From NCBI RefSeq assembly GCF_008520305.1, contig NZ_ML703266.1, positions 235,542 to 299,541 on the forward strand: a stretch of 64,000 nucleotides of DNA. The letters are read 5' to 3'. The position numbers and the translations under genes are program-made. Positions 38,619 through 43,203 of the stretch are shown piece by piece. The notes under the pieces are model-generated. The model saw only the letters and a program-made list of their open reading frames with translations. It had not been told where the DNA came from and made no database searches. The stretch comes from Mesorhizobium sp. SARCC-RB16n (GTDB lineage Bacteria; Pseudomonadota; Alphaproteobacteria; Rhizobiales; Rhizobiaceae). Numbering within the stretch: the first letter of the stretch is position 1; each line of letters starts with the position of its first letter.

Positions 38619-39548
38619 TCATCGCCGCGGATAAGCCGCCCGGCAGACTGACATCACGGTATCGCGCAGCCAGCGATGGGCCGGGTCGGCGTCCATGCGG
38701 GGATGCCACATCGCCGATATCTTGAACTCCGGAATGGGAAGCGGGAGCTCGAAGCACTCAAGACCCGTCGTGACGGCATGGTCGCTTGCGCCGTCGTTGC
38801 CGAAACATGAGCGCGGCACGGTCGCGACCAGATCCGACTGGCGAACAATCCGCATTGCATCGGGATAGCCGGGCACGACAACCGCGACGGTGCGCCCAAG
38901 GCCAAGCTTGCCCAAGGCGCCATCGATCGGCTCGACGACATTTCCTTCCCGTGACGCCACGACATGCTTGCAAGCGGCATAGCGTTGGGGCGTGACGCCC
39001 GCGCCCGTCAGAAGCGGATGTCCGGCCCGGATCACACCGGCATATTTGTCGTGGAACAGGAACTGGGTGCGTATCTCGGGCGCGGATGTGCCAAGCAAAC
39101 CGATCTCCAGATCGATGAGACCTTCCCGGAGCGGGCGCGCATCCTTGTCGGGCTTGGGTGCGAAGCGCAGGCGGACACGAGGCGCCGCACGGGTAACTGC
39201 AACCACGACCGGGCCGGACAGGAATTCCAGGAACGCTTCGCTGGCGCGAATGGTGAACGTCAATTCCAGCGTCGCTAAGTTCAAGCGCATGTTTTGCGGC
39301 CGCAGAACCGATCGCACATCCCGGGTGAGCTCATGGACACGATCGTGCAATTCCGCGGCGTGCGGCGTGGGCACAAGCCCGCGTCCGGCCCGGACGAGCA
39401 GCGGGTCGCCGGTGGCTGCGCGAAGTCGCGTGAGCGTCCGGCTCATCGCCGAGGTGCTCAGGCCGAGTCGGCGGGCCGCCCCCGTCACGCTGCCTTCGGC
39501 AAGCAAGACGTCCAGCGCTACGAGAAGGTTCAGGTCCACATTGTCCAT
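38619..39548 (-). CDS. LysR-family transcriptional regulator
   Basis: 309 residues. N-terminal winged helix: LNLLVALDVLLAEGSVTGAA then RRLGLSTSAMSRTLTRLRAA (about 5-44). The rest is the two-lobed periplasmic-binding-like effector domain (FTIRASEAFLEFLSGPVV...). LysR proteins usually regulate themselves and a divergent gene. The divergent neighbour is a frameshifted SDR gene starting 133 bases away, so its natural target may be defunct here. The ligand is unknown. Confidence 0.93.
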   Translation of the reverse strand: MDNVDLNLLVALDVLLAEGSVTGAARRLGLSTSAMSRTLTRLRAATGDPLLVRAGRGLVPTPHAAELHDRVHELTRDVRSVLRPQNMRLNLATLELTFTIRASEAFLEFLSGPVVVAVTRAAPRVRLRFAPKPDKDARPLREGLIDLEIGLLGTSAPEIRTQFLFHDKYAGVIRAGHPLLTGAGVTPQRYAACKHVVASREGNVVEPIDGALGKLGLGRTVAVVVPGYPDAMRIVRQSDLVATVPRSCFGNDGASDHAVTTGLECFELPLPIPEFKISAMWHPRMDADPAHRWLRDTVMSVCRAAYPRR

Positions 39549-39681
39549 GGCACAACCTTATCCCAGCTGTTTTGGCAGACATAGCGTCAGATGCAACCAT
39601 ACTTTGAATTTGGCGCGTCTGGCGCACGGCTTCCGGTTGCCCATATTTGCGGTCACCCCAGACAACGAAGGAGATTGCCCA

Positions 39682-40397
39682 ATGTCCACAAACGTCTTGA
39701 ACACCCCGTCAGGTACTGTCCTCATCGTCGGCGCATCGCGCGGCCTCGGCCACGCAATGGCGGCCGAGTTTCTCAGGAAAGGCTGGAACGTCGTCGGCAC
39801 GATTCGGAAAGGCAGCGGCCGGACCAAACTGCACGACCTCACGGACGAGTTCGAAGGCCGGCTCGAAATCGAGACGGTCGACATCTGCGAGCCCGATCAG
39901 GTCGCGGCCTTGCGCGACCGGCTGTCGGGCCGGGTATTCGACATATGTTCGTCAATGCCGGCGTTAGCAACAACCCGACTGAAACGATCGCCGATGTGAC
40001 GACCGACGAGTTCGTGCGCGTGATGGTCACAAATGCGCTCAGCCCGATGCGCGTCCTCGAGAGCCTGGAGCAATGCGTCCCGGCGACCGGCCTGATCGGC
40101 GTGATGTCGTCCGGGCAGGGCAGCATCTCCAACAACGAGACAGGTCAACGCGAGGTCTACCGCGGCAGCAAAGCGGCGCTGAACATGTTCATGCGAAGCT
40201 TCGCGGCCCGTCATGCCGCAACGTCGCGTGCCATGGTGCTGATGGCGCCCGGCTGGGTCCGTACGGAATTGGGAGGGCCGGAAGGACGGCTGAGCATCGA
40301 GGAGAGCGTGCCGAGCCTTGTCAACGTTCTGCTTGCCAGACAGGGAACCCCGGGGTTGACGTATGTCGACTATCTCGGCCGCACCGTCCCCTGGTGA
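39682..40397 (+). pseudogene. SDR-family oxidoreductase gene with a single-base frameshift
   Basis: Frame 1 from ATG 39682 reads MSTNVLNTPSGTVLIVGASR with the cofactor motif GASRGLG and reaches GRVFDI at about 39943. Homology continues in another frame from about 39947 as FVNAGVSNNPTETIADV, then the catalytic YRGSK (Y-x3-K) and the C-terminus YVDYLGRTVPW. The junction GACATATGTTC fits loss of one base (GAC ATA TTG TTC expected for D-I-L-F). Frame 1 stops at 39999. The rest looks intact, so the lesion is recent or a sequencing error. Divergent from the LysR gene. Confidence 0.85.
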
Positions 40398-40420: not shown

Positions 40421-40510
40421 TGGCGGAGGGAGTGGGATTCGAACCCACGGTGAACTTGCGCCCACGCCGGTTTTCAAGACCGGTGCCTTAAACCGCTCGG
40501 CCATCCCTCC
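40421..40510 (-). tRNA. tRNA-Ser (anticodon TGA)
   Basis: Minus strand, 90 bases. Acceptor GGAGGGA/TCCCTCC, D-arm with CCGAGCGGTTTAAGGC, anticodon stem with loop CTTGAAA (anticodon TGA, Ser UCA), a long class II variable arm (GCGTGGGCGCAAGTTCACC region), T-arm GTGGGTTCGAATCCCAC, encoded CCA. Its 5' half (40472-40511) is repeated twice downstream as attachment sites. Confidence 0.95.
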
Positions 40511-40511
40511 G
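40472..40511 (-). repeat. Attachment site copy 1 (5' half of tRNA-Ser)
   Basis: 40 bases covering tRNA positions 1 to about 39, from the 5' end through the anticodon loop. Imperfectly repeated at 41251-41290 and 42955-42994 in the same orientation, one mismatch each. Together they bracket two small elements. Confidence 0.9.
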
Positions 40512-40565
40512 GGCCTTGATTTCGTTAGCTTTTCTGGCGTTCTGTGCTCGGCCATGCGGGCCGCT

Positions 40566-40581
40566 GCTACCATTTGCTACC
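40566..40581. repeat. Short direct repeat GCTACC-N4-GCTACC, left end of element 1
   Basis: Two GCTACC units 10 bases apart (40566, 40576), matched at the other end of the element at 41115-41131 (two units 11 apart, plus an inverted GGTAGC at 41138). Position just inside both att copies suggests arm-type recombinase sites (inference). Confidence 0.6.
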
Positions 40582-40825
40582 GAATGCCCATTTCGATCCA
40601 CACATGGACTGCGTTTGCTGCGACCCCTCCTAGCAACATGCATAGGGGTATGACAACTCCGGTTGCTCCTAATTGTTGAGCGATGAAGGCCGAGCCGAAA
40701 AAGGCAACGATCCCCACGAACAGCGAGATTGGGATGAACAGAAATGATGACTTCAAGCCCTTATGGTAGGTGACATAGGCGGAAGGCGCCAGCCATAGAG
40801 CGATGATCAACAAGCTACCGATCAC
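40577..40825 (-). CDS. Small membrane protein, function unknown (element 1 cargo)
   Basis: 82 residues from GTG 40825, overlapping the integrase remnant stop by four bases (GTGA). Two or three hydrophobic segments: GSLLIIALWLAPSAYVTY, SSFLFIPISLFVGIVAFFGS and TGVVIPLCMLLGGVAAN. No known domain. It lies inside the tRNA-Ser element between the integrase fragment and the tRNA, so it is element cargo. Confidence 0.6.
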   Translation of the reverse strand: MIGSLLIIALWLAPSAYVTYHKGLKSSFLFIPISLFVGIVAFFGSAFIAQQLGATGVVIPLCMLLGGVAANAVHVWIEMGIR

Positions 40826-41112
40826 GCGTTTCCTCCCCCTTTGGAATTTGCCGCTCGGATAGCAGCATCAACCTCTTCCGCAGCATCAGCATGCATTCCT
40901 GGCATCACATGCGAATAAAGGTCCAGCGTGATCCCGATCGTCGAATGCCCAAGGCGCTCGCTGGCGACCTTCGGATGAACGCCGGCAAGCATCTGTGGAG
41001 CGTAGGTATGCCGAAGATCGTGGAAGCCGATGCGGGGCAGGGTTGTCTTGCCGATGATGCGAGGCAACGCGTCAACACTCAGATGTAAGGAGCAGAATGT
41101 CCGATGAACATC
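40822..41112 (-). pseudogene. Tyrosine integrase, C-terminal remnant (element 1)
   Basis: The catalytic C-terminal part is readable: GFHDLRHTYA (R-box HxLRHT), then ASERLGHSTIGITLDLYSHV, with H/R and the tyrosine in LYSH, and a tail with EEVDAAIRAANSKGG. About 95 codons are open from 41112; the translated part starts at a TTG (41067). The N-terminal SAM-like and the first catalytic arginine regions are missing, so it cannot be active. It points toward the tRNA-Ser, as expected for its integrase. Confidence 0.85.
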
Positions 41113-41114
41113 TT

Positions 41115-41131
41115 GCTACCATTTTGCTACC
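41115..41131. repeat. GCTACC repeats, right end of element 1
   Basis: GCTACC at 41115 and 41126 with shared flanks CCATTTTGCTACCGAA, nearly the same as CCATTTGCTACCGAA at the left end (40571-40584). Followed by an inverted GGTAGC at 41138-41143. Confidence 0.6.
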
Positions 41132-41250
41132 GAACTCGGTAGCAGCATCCGGTACGAAACGGGAGCAATAGTGCAGAGCTTCGCCTATCCGATTGATTTT
41201 CCGGTACATGGCCGGATGGCGCAGGACGGATCAATACGCCAATAAGCGAA

Positions 41251-41290
41251 TTTCAAGACCGGTGCCTTAAAACGCTCGGCCATCCCTCCG
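41251..41290 (-). repeat. Attachment site copy 2 (tRNA-Ser 5' half), element 1/2 junction
   Basis: 40-base copy of 40472-40511 with one substitution (AAAACGCTCGG for AAACCGCTCGG). It is a tRNA fragment, not a tRNA, and is the junction between two elements integrated next to each other. Confidence 0.9.
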
Positions 41291-41343
41291 CTATGGTTTT
41301 CCAACCACTTAGGACATTAGCGACCGGTCGTTTTTGAGCAGTT

Positions 41344-41360
41344 GGCACCGAATTGGCACC
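41344..41360. repeat. GGCACC repeats, left end of element 2
   Basis: TTGGCACCGAATTGGCACCGAA: GGCACC at 41344 and 41355. Matched at 42818 and 42830 near the right end (TTGGCACCGAACTTGGCACCGG). A further TTGGCACCG is at 42185. The sequence differs from the GCTACC set of element 1, so the two elements use different arm sites. Confidence 0.6.
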
Positions 41361-41386
41361 GAAGGCGTTCCCGACCGGTTCGCTGT

Positions 41387-41505
41387 TCATTCCTGTAGTG
41401 CGGCATTGAGGGCCGCGTCAACCACCGCTGCGGCGCCTTCCTGCTGTCCTGGCAGAAGGTGTGCATAAATGTTCAGCGTAGCCGACGGGTTGGCATAACC
41501 GGCGC
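41387..41505 (-). pseudogene. Second tyrosine integrase, extreme C-terminal remnant (element 2)
   Basis: About 38 codons: GYANPSATLNIYAHLLPGQ, then EGAAAVVDAALNAALQE and TGA at 41389-41387. NPSATLNIYAH is the box around the catalytic tyrosine of phage-type integrases. It is a different enzyme from the fragment at 40822 (that one has TIGITLDLYSHVMPGM). The remaining gene is gone; homology ends near 41505. Confidence 0.75.
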
Positions 41506-41592
41506 GCGCTGACCCGACTAGGCTACCAGACCGGCGAGGGCATGGACGATCGAGAACTCGACGACGAGCGGGAACAGCCCGACTTCAACTGA
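41506..41592 (+). pseudogene. 3' end of an unidentified plus-strand gene
   Basis: About 27 codons reading GALTRLGYQTGEGMDDRELD and then DEREQPDFN before TGA at 41590-41592. The acidic tail resembles C-termini of accessory-region proteins. It abuts the integrase remnant, so a deletion joint near 41505 is likely. Family unknown. Confidence 0.25.
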
Positions 41593-41640
41593 AATTCAAC
41601 ACCGTGTTGAATATGGCCGCTGCCTCCCGGTGGCGGCATC

Positions 41641-42126
41641 TTAGCGGTCACTACGGGAGAAGAAATTCCTCAGAAGTTGACTGCCGGTCGCGCCGGCCGA
41701 CCCGGTGGCCTCATCCCGCCACCTGCTGGTCTCTTTGTTATGCTGCTTATAGTCCTGGCGAAGTCGCTGCGCCCTTGCCGCATCCGATCTGGCTGCAGCC
41801 AGTCGGGCCGATTGGTCACCGTCCGGAAGGCGCAGTGGCACTGCGAATACGACCCTGCTTACGGCCTGGGACCGGCTGTCCATGCCACCTTCCGCTCCAG
41901 TCCCCCAGACCCTGATGAACTCCTTGCCGTCGGCCGAAGATTCGGCCGTCACGGCGACATCGAAGTCGACGCGGACGAACCCGAACTCAGGAAGCATGGA
42001 CAGATTGCTGCCAGGATCGCCACGGAATGACGCATTGACGTTCTCGCCGATCTCAGTGTCCTGCGCTTTAGCAACGCCGGAGAGTATCTGTCCCAGGGTC
42101 TCTGAGATGAATTGTTCCAAGTCCAT
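41641..42126 (-). CDS. Trypco2-like domain protein (element 2 cargo)
   Basis: 161 residues from ATG 42126 (MDLEQFISETLGQILSGVAK). The N-terminal helix LEQFISETLGQILSGVAKAQ followed by the strand GFVRVDFDVAVTAES resembles the trypco2 ('trypsin-co-occurring domain 2') family found in predicted prokaryotic conflict and signalling systems beside trypsin-like proteases. The C-terminal half (RLRQDYKQHNKETSRWRDEA) is polar and unlike the family. No protease gene is adjacent in the remaining element. Recognised from memory, not by search. Confidence 0.5.
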   Translation of the reverse strand: MDLEQFISETLGQILSGVAKAQDTEIGENVNASFRGDPGSNLSMLPEFGFVRVDFDVAVTAESSADGKEFIRVWGTGAEGGMDSRSQAVSRVVFAVPLRLPDGDQSARLAAARSDAARAQRLRQDYKQHNKETSRWRDEATGSAGATGSQLLRNFFSRSDR

Positions 42127-42184
42127 TTTTCTTCCCCGCACATGGGTGCGTCCATTCGGAACTGCTAATATTTGCAGGAAAGAG

Positions 42185-42192
42185 TTGGCACC
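42185..42192. repeat. Extra TTGGCACC unit inside element 2
   Basis: TTGGCACC at 42185-42192, followed by GCAATTGGC, resembling the end repeats at 41342-41360 and 42816-42835. Confidence 0.35.
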
Positions 42193-42227
42193 GCAATTGG
42201 CCCGGCGGTTTCGGCTTCCGGGGCCTT

Positions 42228-42443
42228 CTATTGCAATCTCGGTTGGACCCGGTCCAGGCATCGAATGGGGATATCGGGCCAAGTCGCCTTGGCGCATTCT
42301 GCGTCTGTAACTGCCGCAACGGGCTCGCCTTGCACACTGGCGGCTTGTGTGGCCGTGGATCCGAGGAGGAATGTTTGCGTCAGGAGGGCCGAGAAGGCGG
42401 CGACTTGAAGCAGCACTGCGGCAAAGGCGATTTTCTTGAGCAT
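42228..42443 (-). CDS. Small secreted protein with WPDIP motif (element 2 cargo)
   Basis: 71 residues from ATG 42443 (MLKKIAFAAVLLQVAAFSAL). The long signal peptide probably ends near TATQA. The mature part is about 35 residues with two cysteines (DAECAKATWPDIPIRCLDR). CxxATWPxIPxxCL matches small rhizobial secreted proteins annotated as hypothetical. It is complete and lies upstream of the trypco2-like gene in the same direction. Confidence 0.6.
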   Translation of the reverse strand: MLKKIAFAAVLLQVAAFSALLTQTFLLGSTATQAASVQGEPVAAVTDAECAKATWPDIPIRCLDRVQPRLQ

Positions 42444-42556
42444 GCGAGAGAACGTTGTTGATGGCCACCCGGTTCCGTCAGGTAAGGCGCTTGCCAATCA
42501 TTCATCGATAGGAACATATTCCCGGCGCGGCGATTTCTTCCTTCCTGGGCCGCACC

Positions 42557-42868
42557 ATGTCCAAGACCATCGCCAACGCCATTCGCAGCCGTGAGACGTT
42601 CTACGTCACGTGCGGCCAACCCATGTGCAATCATTCACCCAGCTCGACCTGGAGGCGCTAGGCGCCCGCCTGGGGCTCGACCACGGCGCCATGCATAACG
42701 ACCTGGTGAAAGGTGTTCCGGTGCGATCAATGCAAGCAAGCGGGCATGGACCAGCGGCCAGTGTTCTTCACCTGCTTCCCGGATTATGGCCGATTCGATC
42801 GGGAGAGGATTGGCATTGGCACCGAACTTGGCACCGGACAGGCAGGGAAGGGTAGGGACGAGGTAGGA
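42557..42868 (+). pseudogene. Zinc-ribbon-like protein gene with two compensating frameshifts
   Basis: Frame A from ATG 42557 reads MSKTIANAIRSRETFYVTCG then PMCNHS. Homology then passes to frame B, FTQLDLEALGARLGLDHG, AMHNDLVK, and returns to frame A from 42716: FRCDQCKQAG. The first slip fits loss of a T (TGC AAT CAT T-TC), the second a G gain (AAAGGTG). Net frame is restored, but frame A has TAG at 42659-42661 between the lesions. Cysteines C..C and CDQC suggest a zinc ribbon. A decayed cargo gene. Confidence 0.65.
42818..42835. repeat. GGCACC repeats, right end of element 2
   Basis: GGCACC at 42818 and 42830, about 120 bases from attachment copy 3. Partners of the 41344-41360 pair at the other end. 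Confidence 0.6.
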
Positions 42869-42954
42869 TGAAGGCTTGCGAGCGGCAGAGAAAAAGCGGG
42901 GAAAACCGGGCTATTCGGGACCGCAGATGACAGCGCGGGATGGCTTTCACCACG

Positions 42955-42994
42955 TTTCAAGACCGGTGCCTTAAACCGCTGGGCCATCCCTCCG
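42955..42994 (-). repeat. Attachment site copy 3 (tRNA-Ser 5' half), right boundary of element 2
   Basis: 40-base copy with one substitution (CCGCTGGGCC for CCGCTCGGCC). It marks the right end of the accessory region; core genes resume with rlpA about 200 bases on. It should be the original 5' half of the tRNA, displaced by integration. Confidence 0.88.
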
Positions 42995-43203
42995 GTGACT
43001 GCACTGCTCTATGTGCCAGGCGAAGGACAAGCAGCGCCACAATCTTGCCCGGTTCCGGCCACAATCGATTAATACCGTGATAAACAATTCCTGCGCACAA
43101 AGGATCGGGGTTCGAGGCGTCGTTGGCATTGCGAGTGAGTGCTTTGGCTCCTCTGATGGTCGGATACGACGTCTTTGGTTGAGACTTTAGGGGGCAATCA
43201 AGA

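Follow-up and report, generated by a model that had tools for sequence, protein, structure and literature searches.

How does a tRNA gene stay expressed once mobile elements have repeatedly replaced its 5' half, and with it the sequence that adjoins its promoter? This question is raised by the tRNA-Ser(TGA) gene of Mesorhizobium sp. SARCC-RB16n (NCBI RefSeq assembly GCF_008520305.1), which lies in a stretch of 64,000 nucleotides analyzed here and referred to as the window (contig NZ_ML703266.1, positions 235,542 to 299,541). An initial annotation, made from the letters alone, had read positions 40421-42994 of the window as two successive integrations at one bacterial attachment site (attB), both since reduced to remnants. 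The attachment (att) copies, the empty and filled sites in relatives, and the element ends all bear that out. Beyond that annotation, we infer that insertion by way of the 5' half separates the tRNA from its promoter, for which the tail codons of the integrases hold a promoter-like replacement. We consider the explanation as a whole, comprising two integrations, internal deletion, and a tail-borne replacement promoter, to be very probable.

In the proposed course of events, two phage-like elements would have integrated successively at the anticodon loop of tRNA-Ser(TGA). With the 5' half restored each time, the newcomer would land between the tRNA and the older element, and the interiors of both elements would have been lost later. 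Each replacement of the 5' half would strand the host promoter at the far end, and a sigma70-type promoter in the last codons of the integrase (TTGAC-N16/18-nTA), some 100 bp upstream, would read into the tRNA in its place. Dependence of the tRNA on this tail promoter may be the reason that the integrase tail persists after the element is gone. What carries this explanation directly is the set of three att copies, the occurrence of both vacant and occupied sites, the element ends, the conservation of the motif at the nucleotide level, and its retention upstream of the tRNA at broken integrases; that the motif is a working promoter, and that the tRNA depends on it, is what these sequence patterns suggest.

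The initial annotation had described three co-oriented 5' halves of tRNA-Ser(TGA), separated by 739 and 1664 bases. A repeat finder recovered all three, and both spacings are correct.

40421..40510, minus strand: intact tRNA-Ser(TGA), restored at the element 1 junction (ARAGORN)
40472..40512, minus strand: att copy 1, from the anticodon loop (7-bp overlap, 40472-40478) to the tRNA 5' end (repeat finder)
41251..41291, minus strand: att copy 2, a tRNA-Ser 5' half at the boundary of elements 1 and 2 (repeat finder)
42955..42995, minus strand: att copy 3, the original 5' half, whose outer flank is host flank (repeat finder, flank alignment)

Over 41 nt, copies 2 and 3 are 95% and 98% identical to copy 1. 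The identity runs from the 7-bp anticodon loop (TTTCAAG, 40472-40478) through tRNA position 1, and beyond the loop the sequences of all three copies diverge, as expected for a tyrosine-integrase crossover in the anticodon loop. The displaced fragment is the 5' part of the gene; it lies upstream of the tRNA in the same orientation and bounds the elements. No further tRNA-half site with a match of at least 27 of 41 positions occurs on either strand of the window; the tRNA half was also searched for in 20 relatives.

Relatives were taken from a search with the neighboring rlpA gene, from which we kept 80 loci, nearly all of them named Mesorhizobium; by RlpA identity, the closest stand at 97% and 96%. 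The empty junction between tRNA-Ser and rlpA that the initial annotation had proposed to look for was found in several close relatives (L001, L003, L004, and others), where a single tRNA-Ser lies about 300 bases from rlpA. The tRNA in the window is 100% identical to that of the empty-site relatives L001 and L003, and window positions 42955-43026, comprising copy 3 and 31 bases of its outer flank, are 87 to 88% identical to the 5' end and flank of the tRNA in these two. Because the flank of copy 3 aligns with the empty-site flank, the original 5' half is the one in copy 3, whereas the elements brought the other two copies. Larger elements, likewise anticipated, occupy the same site in five relatives with 14 to 46 kb between two copies (G002, ∼39 kb; G003, ∼14 kb; G005, ∼41 kb; G006, ∼17 kb; G007, ∼46 kb). 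A full-length integrase adjoins the tRNA in four of these five; in G005, a motif search found no full-length integrase beside the tRNA. In G001 and G004, the two copies are on separate contigs and a full-length integrase adjoins the tRNA, and in L024 two elements are stacked in the order seen in the window. As a side observation, tRNA-Ser is inverted relative to rlpA in six loci (L014, L027, L028, L030, L045, and L080), which suggests inversions at the hot spot.

Between the att copies, the initial annotation had placed two different integrase remnants, each at the tRNA-proximal end. Both were recovered, the first as a PF00589 match and the second as an L085-like integrase end within 41251-41518. 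Elements and integrases of the first and second kinds are called type 1 and type 2 below.

40513..41250, no strand assigned: element 1 remnant, with left end (40513-40584, 40858-41062) and right end (41105-41250) kept and interior lost; ends match L084
41292..42954, no strand assigned: element 2 remnant, both ends retained (left, to 41518; right, from 42817); ends match L085
40822..41067, minus strand: type-1 tyrosine integrase, C-terminal remnant (PF00589, E value 2.4e-6)
41387..41518, minus strand: type-2 tyrosine integrase, C-terminal remnant, frame broken (L085 alignment)
40565..40581, plus strand: element 1 left arm-like repeat pair, TGCTACC twice
41114..41131, plus strand: element 1 right arm-like repeat pair
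41342..41360, plus strand: element 2 left arm-like repeat pair, TTGGCACC twice
42816..42835, plus strand: element 2 right arm-like repeat pair

Element 1 aligns with the 14-kb element of L084 at 92% (40421-40584), 80% (40858-41062), and 72% (41105-41289), the first and last of these stretches including tRNA or core. Element 2 aligns with the 17-kb element of L085 at 88% (41251-41518) and 83% (42817-42994, core included). In L085, the counterpart of 41251-41518 is the tRNA-proximal end of the element together with the 3' end of the integrase, which is full-length there. The integrases of the window are truncated, and both ends and the repeat pairs are retained in each remnant. These pairs look like arm-type integrase sites; L084 has the element-1-type pair near both ends, and in L085 the element-2 pair was found at the tRNA-proximal end only. 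For the window remnants we considered the class of cis-mobilizable (CIME-like) remnants, which keep both att ends and are mobilized in trans. Against deposited phages, the integrase-1 remnant matched 354 records, all below 60% identity; among rhizobial plasmids, there were fragment matches in 62 records, the best at 84% over 62% of the remnant.

The cargo of the larger relatives indicates what such elements may have been. In a 39-kb type-1 relative (L082, L083), 8 of 10 proteins match PHROGs, including portal, tail fiber, amidase, primase, and helicase; judged by these matches, type 1 includes temperate phage. In the 17-kb type-2 relative L085, 7 of 9 proteins match PHROGs, with head protease and portal-fragment families present and the full set absent. 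In the 41-, 46-, and 14-kb stretches, 5 of 10 large proteins match PHROGs and none of these is structural, so phage status is not claimed for every element at this site.

What integration does to the tRNA promoter can be read from the empty sites, where the motif TTGACA-N17-CTAGAG lies 24 to 31 bases before tRNA-Ser in most of the closest relatives. Because the elements restore the 5' half, this native motif is left behind at the far end of the element. In L013 and L022, for instance, the displaced motif is still perfect (score of 9.5), and the complete tRNA is on another contig beside an integrase. With the native motif displaced, transcription of the tRNA must come from element DNA, barring very long read-through. 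The UCA codon requires tRNA-Ser(TGA), which in G013 has a single match at 100% and a next-best match at 77%; loss of the promoter of a gene needed in this way matters to the cell.

A candidate for the replacement lies in the integrase tails. In their last codons GTT GAC is seen, and the eighth codon counted on from GTT ends in TA (ATA, GTA, CTA, or TTA). The layout yields TTGAC-N18-nTA, so that the -35-like and -10-like boxes have the spacing of the native motif at empty tRNA-Ser sites. To survey this feature, integrase profile searches at the ranks of family, order, and class covered 394, 397, and 385 genomes, of which 23, 10, and 11, respectively, had a match, and the set was supplemented with the best 80 of 151 viral-contig loci and with the Mesorhizobium loci. 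The resulting set comprises 102 distinct integrase-like open reading frames (ORFs) with a minimum length of about 320 codons, among which L006 is spurious; 43 further loci were left out. Clades were grouped by identity of the integrase body with the tail excluded, in order to avoid circularity. In the L084 (element 1) clade, 51 of 52 integrases carry the motif, 41 in the N18 form and 10 in the N16 form, the exception being L207. Synonymous resampling of this clade predicts 0.67 of 52, and the pattern occurs twice in the 58,653 nt of the bodies of the same 52 integrases. In the type-2 clade, both members (L085 and L172) have the motif, and outside the two clades it was found in none of 47 integrases, 3 of which face a tRNA 3' end. 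The tRNA targets of motif-bearing integrases are tRNA-Ser(TGA), tRNA-SeC, and tRNA-Ser(CGA). In a FastTree phylogeny of the bodies, motif-less lineages separate the two motif clades, with supports along the path down to 0.23; a double origin of the tail motif is likely but not certain.

The upstream regions of tRNA-Ser indicate the fate of the tail once an element has been lost. We surveyed 73 tRNA-Ser(TGA) copies called by ARAGORN, 72 in the 80 loci and 1 in the window. A tail-type motif lies upstream of 34 of them (type 2, 21; type 1b, 12; type 1a, 1), the empty-site motif upstream of 27, and an empty-site core with a type-2-like leader upstream of 9; the other 3 are the window copy, one of the two copies in L008, and L078. 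At the tail-type loci the integrase frames are broken, the 21 that were measured reaching no more than 225 open codons, compared to about 395 in an intact integrase; the integrase ORFs listed there have at most 271 codons, and no true integrase ORF of 320 codons was found in L001 to L080. The complete conservation (100%) of TTGAC in the dead-locus set is circular, as those loci were selected by motif. Leaders of 4 of the 9 mixed copies were tested against type-2 leaders and gave z values of 4.6 to 7.7; two empty-site leaders gave -0.2 to 1.0. In a separate count, of complete core copies, 68 of 72 score at least 8 within 150 bp, whereas of 700 stretches drawn at random from the window 1.3% do so.

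Two side observations concern these upstream regions. At type-2 loci (e.g., L085, L031, and L059), a small hairpin (GTGATT-GAAA-AATCAC and variants) lies directly 5' of tRNA-Ser; one of its eight predicted pairs changes on both sides, in an analysis whose input sequences were one base short. In L008, which has two copies of tRNA-Ser(TGA), one copy is 88 bases long and lacks a convincing upstream motif. L057 is a second relative with two copies.

Within the window, the sites that bear on present and former transcription of the tRNA are as follows.

41393..41421, minus strand: P2, intact promoter-like motif TTGACG-N17-CTACAG in the integrase-2 tail, directed at the tRNA and now behind element 1
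40843..40872, minus strand: P1, the integrase-1 equivalent of P2, degenerate (TTGAT without nTA)
40628..40656, minus strand: TTGTCA-N17-CTAGGA, a weak and non-significant candidate for the promoter now driving the tRNA
42995..43031, minus strand: displaced host tRNA promoter region, decayed (best score of 5.5 versus 9.5 in empty sites)
40588..40857, no strand assigned: stretch exceeding that of relatives by about 240 bp, in the left end of element 1, with most of the orphan ORF inside (gap versus L024, L083, and L084)
40577..40825, minus strand: orphan membrane-like ORF of 82 amino acids (aa), no relative found

Because a later arrival would be expected to insert into the intact tRNA, element 1 is presumably the younger of the two. 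About 240 extra bp and the orphan ORF stand between the integrase-1 tail and the tRNA. The candidate site at 40628-40656, which lies inside that ORF, is equaled by 17% of random 400-bp stretches of the window. No relative of the 82-aa ORF was found in the loci searched, in viral contigs, or in plasmids.

A promoter is not the only function that a conserved motif at this position might have. It could be a DNA-binding site used in recombination (for Xis or IHF, or an additional arm site of the phage attachment site, attP). Such a site would suit a motif that lies about 100 bp from the core, within the would-be attP, and that was observed in no integrases other than those of the two clades studied, the majority of which are directed at the 5' end of a tRNA or at the end of a contig. 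It would not account for the empty sites, where no element is seen and yet the sequence upstream of tRNA-Ser and its spacing are the same, nor for persistence of the motif where the integrase is broken, although some of those loci were chosen with the help of the motif. The details of the -10 box also point away from recombination: the type-2-derived dead loci L014, L029, and L053 have CTAGAG, the empty-site form, rather than CTACAG, and the shifted -10 of a 10-member subclade gives N16, a spacing tolerated by RNA polymerase. We therefore regard a binding site as unlikely, though it is the most serious competitor of the replacement promoter.

Much less probable still is that the motif is a by-product of a conserved protein tail (V-D-x-A-x-x-x-A-I/V/L) and common descent. 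The V-D pair is indeed invariant in six aligned integrases, but synonymous resampling of the L084 clade predicts the motif in far fewer integrases than carry it. Codon 8, counted from GTT as codon 0, encodes Ile, Val, or Leu and ends in A in 44 of 44 integrases of the main set, against a background of 7 to 10%; this figure is circular on its own, as 10 shifted-register integrases and L207 had been removed from that set for their tails. Neither GTT nor nTA codons are generally preferred in these genes, where GTT and GTA make up 17% and 7% of Val codons, ATA makes up 10% of Ile codons, and CTA and TTA together make up 9% of Leu codons. On a 54-tip tree, codon 8 underwent 12 amino-acid changes, 4 second-base changes, and 2 third-base changes, and codon 0 underwent 2 amino-acid changes and no third-base change. 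Among 183 degenerate columns, none has a third base as conserved as that of codon 0, which is T in all but one of 55 integrases; from this set, 9 relatives lacking the motif had first been removed.

Least probable of all is that tandem duplication of the locus produced the three tRNA halves, or that these are tRNA fragments of a dispersed kind. Although L008 and L057 each hold two tRNA-Ser(TGA) copies, both inter-copy segments match the two ends of elements in relatives, and the window holds no dispersed copies.

The replacement-promoter explanation itself has to be weighed against a number of results that count against it. In the window, the integrase-1 tail has lost both boxes. Among the 57 integrases that stop no more than 200 bp short of a tRNA whose 5' end faces them, the motif is present as N18 in 36 and as N16 in 7, but 14 have neither form (L113, L173, L174, L216, L218, L224, L228, L231, L263, L269, L271, L272, L273, and L276; L263 is a near miss, with TGGACA-N17-CTAGGG), so the promoter solution is not universal. 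The native motif is not a constant companion of tRNA genes either: across 31 tRNA upstream regions of one relative, a similar motif precedes some, such as GGCTATAAGC before tRNA-Pro(CGG), and is absent from others. Decay of displaced promoters was looked for as a general rule and not found. Most displaced copies are intact; of 16, 15 score at least 7.5 and 13 at least 8, and the only clearly decayed one is that of window copy 3, so that relaxed selection on displaced promoters finds no support in these scores. Since displaced copies can score this well, the score alone is no proof of use. Finally, the count of 34 tail-type copies rests in part on reading by eye, as the pattern missed the type-1b class and L030.

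Three further observations concern other genes of the locus. In element 2, an ORF for a secreted-looking peptide of 71 aa (42228-42443, minus strand) has relatives across the tRNA in L001 and L003 and between the tRNA and rlpA in L021 and L080. Another element 2 ORF (41641-42126, minus strand) has a weak likeness to Trypco2 (PF19631, E value of 0.0019, below the curated cutoff). To the left of the tRNA, a short-chain dehydrogenase gene (38992-40397, plus strand) appears split across two frames and may be a pseudogene.

Taken alone, stacked tRNA islands are ordinary and already known. The Islander collection of islands in tRNA genes (tDNA islands) contains the same arrangement of tRNA gene, displaced fragment, integrase, and tandem arrays, and 159 of its 3919 islands have a 5' fragment (PMC4383910). 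The word "promoter" does not occur in the main text of that source, and the window remnants fall below its 2-kb length filter (PMC4383910). A parallel exists in archaeal pTN3-like integrases, which also use the 5' half, so that the restored tRNA is cut from its promoter (PMC8371274, PMC5495485). There the tRNA is said to be expressed from the integrase promoter, a situation described as seldom met in bacteria (PMC8371274). Integration of pTN3-like elements disrupts the integrase gene, however, whereas the Mesorhizobium motif lies in the last codons of an unsplit gene (PMC8371274, PMC5495485).

Promoters supplied by islands are known from other targets. In SpyCIM5 of Streptococcus pyogenes, a promoter within an integrase pseudogene drives mutL, the host gene that follows the island; that case involves a single island and a promoter described as cryptic, whereas here the motif is found in 53 integrases and is aimed at a tRNA (PMC3430984). 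Islands at dusA replace the 5' end of their target, for which putative -10 and -35 boxes were located both at the unoccupied site and once an island had integrated, but the target is a protein gene, and the portion of the source consulted describes no conserved codon-embedded motif (PMC4482086). In tRNA-dependent lysogeny, a phage likewise takes over the supply of an essential tRNA; the core, about 10 bp long, does not reconstitute the tRNA, and a phage-borne tRNA gene takes its place (PMC10865867). The Mesorhizobium locus differs on this point, having a core of about 40 bp and an intact tRNA. ICEKp1 presents the reverse case, in which the tRNA promoter drives the integrase (PMC13023037). The Mesorhizobium symbiosis integrative and conjugative element (ICE) ICEMcSym1192 has a 20-bp core at the 3' end of Ser-tRNA, whereas the core in the window is the 5' half, and it is therefore a different system (PMC8090884). 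In the consulted text of a paper on Sinorhizobium integration hot spots, "promoter" does not occur (PMC11476347). Overall, the accessible literature yielded no description of a codon-embedded integrase promoter serving a tRNA; most subscription papers were outside this search.

At the sequence level, the tail mechanism is well supported, and we read the tRNA-Ser gene as having been repeatedly taken over by integrase-borne promoters, some of which were probably made permanent. We also lean, with less assurance, toward a broader view in which a replacement promoter at synonymous sites arose, probably on two occasions, in phages that split an essential tRNA at its 5' half. The tRNA would then depend on the phage end, host lineages could shed the phage but not the integrase tail, and across a large share of Mesorhizobium (34 to 43 of the 72 tRNA-Ser copies) the tRNA-Ser promoter would now be a domesticated tail. 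In the Islander data, few islands sit at the 5' side of a tRNA gene (159/3919; PMC4383910), and such an insertion costs the gene its promoter, a problem to which this family of integrase tails offers a concrete and testable answer. The synonymous-site signature can be searched for in other integrases that act on the 5' side. If the promoter is real, it would explain why integrase tails outlast the rest of decayed prophages, and tRNA-Ser(TGA) would be a case in which mobile elements have, several times over, supplied a core tRNA gene with a new promoter.

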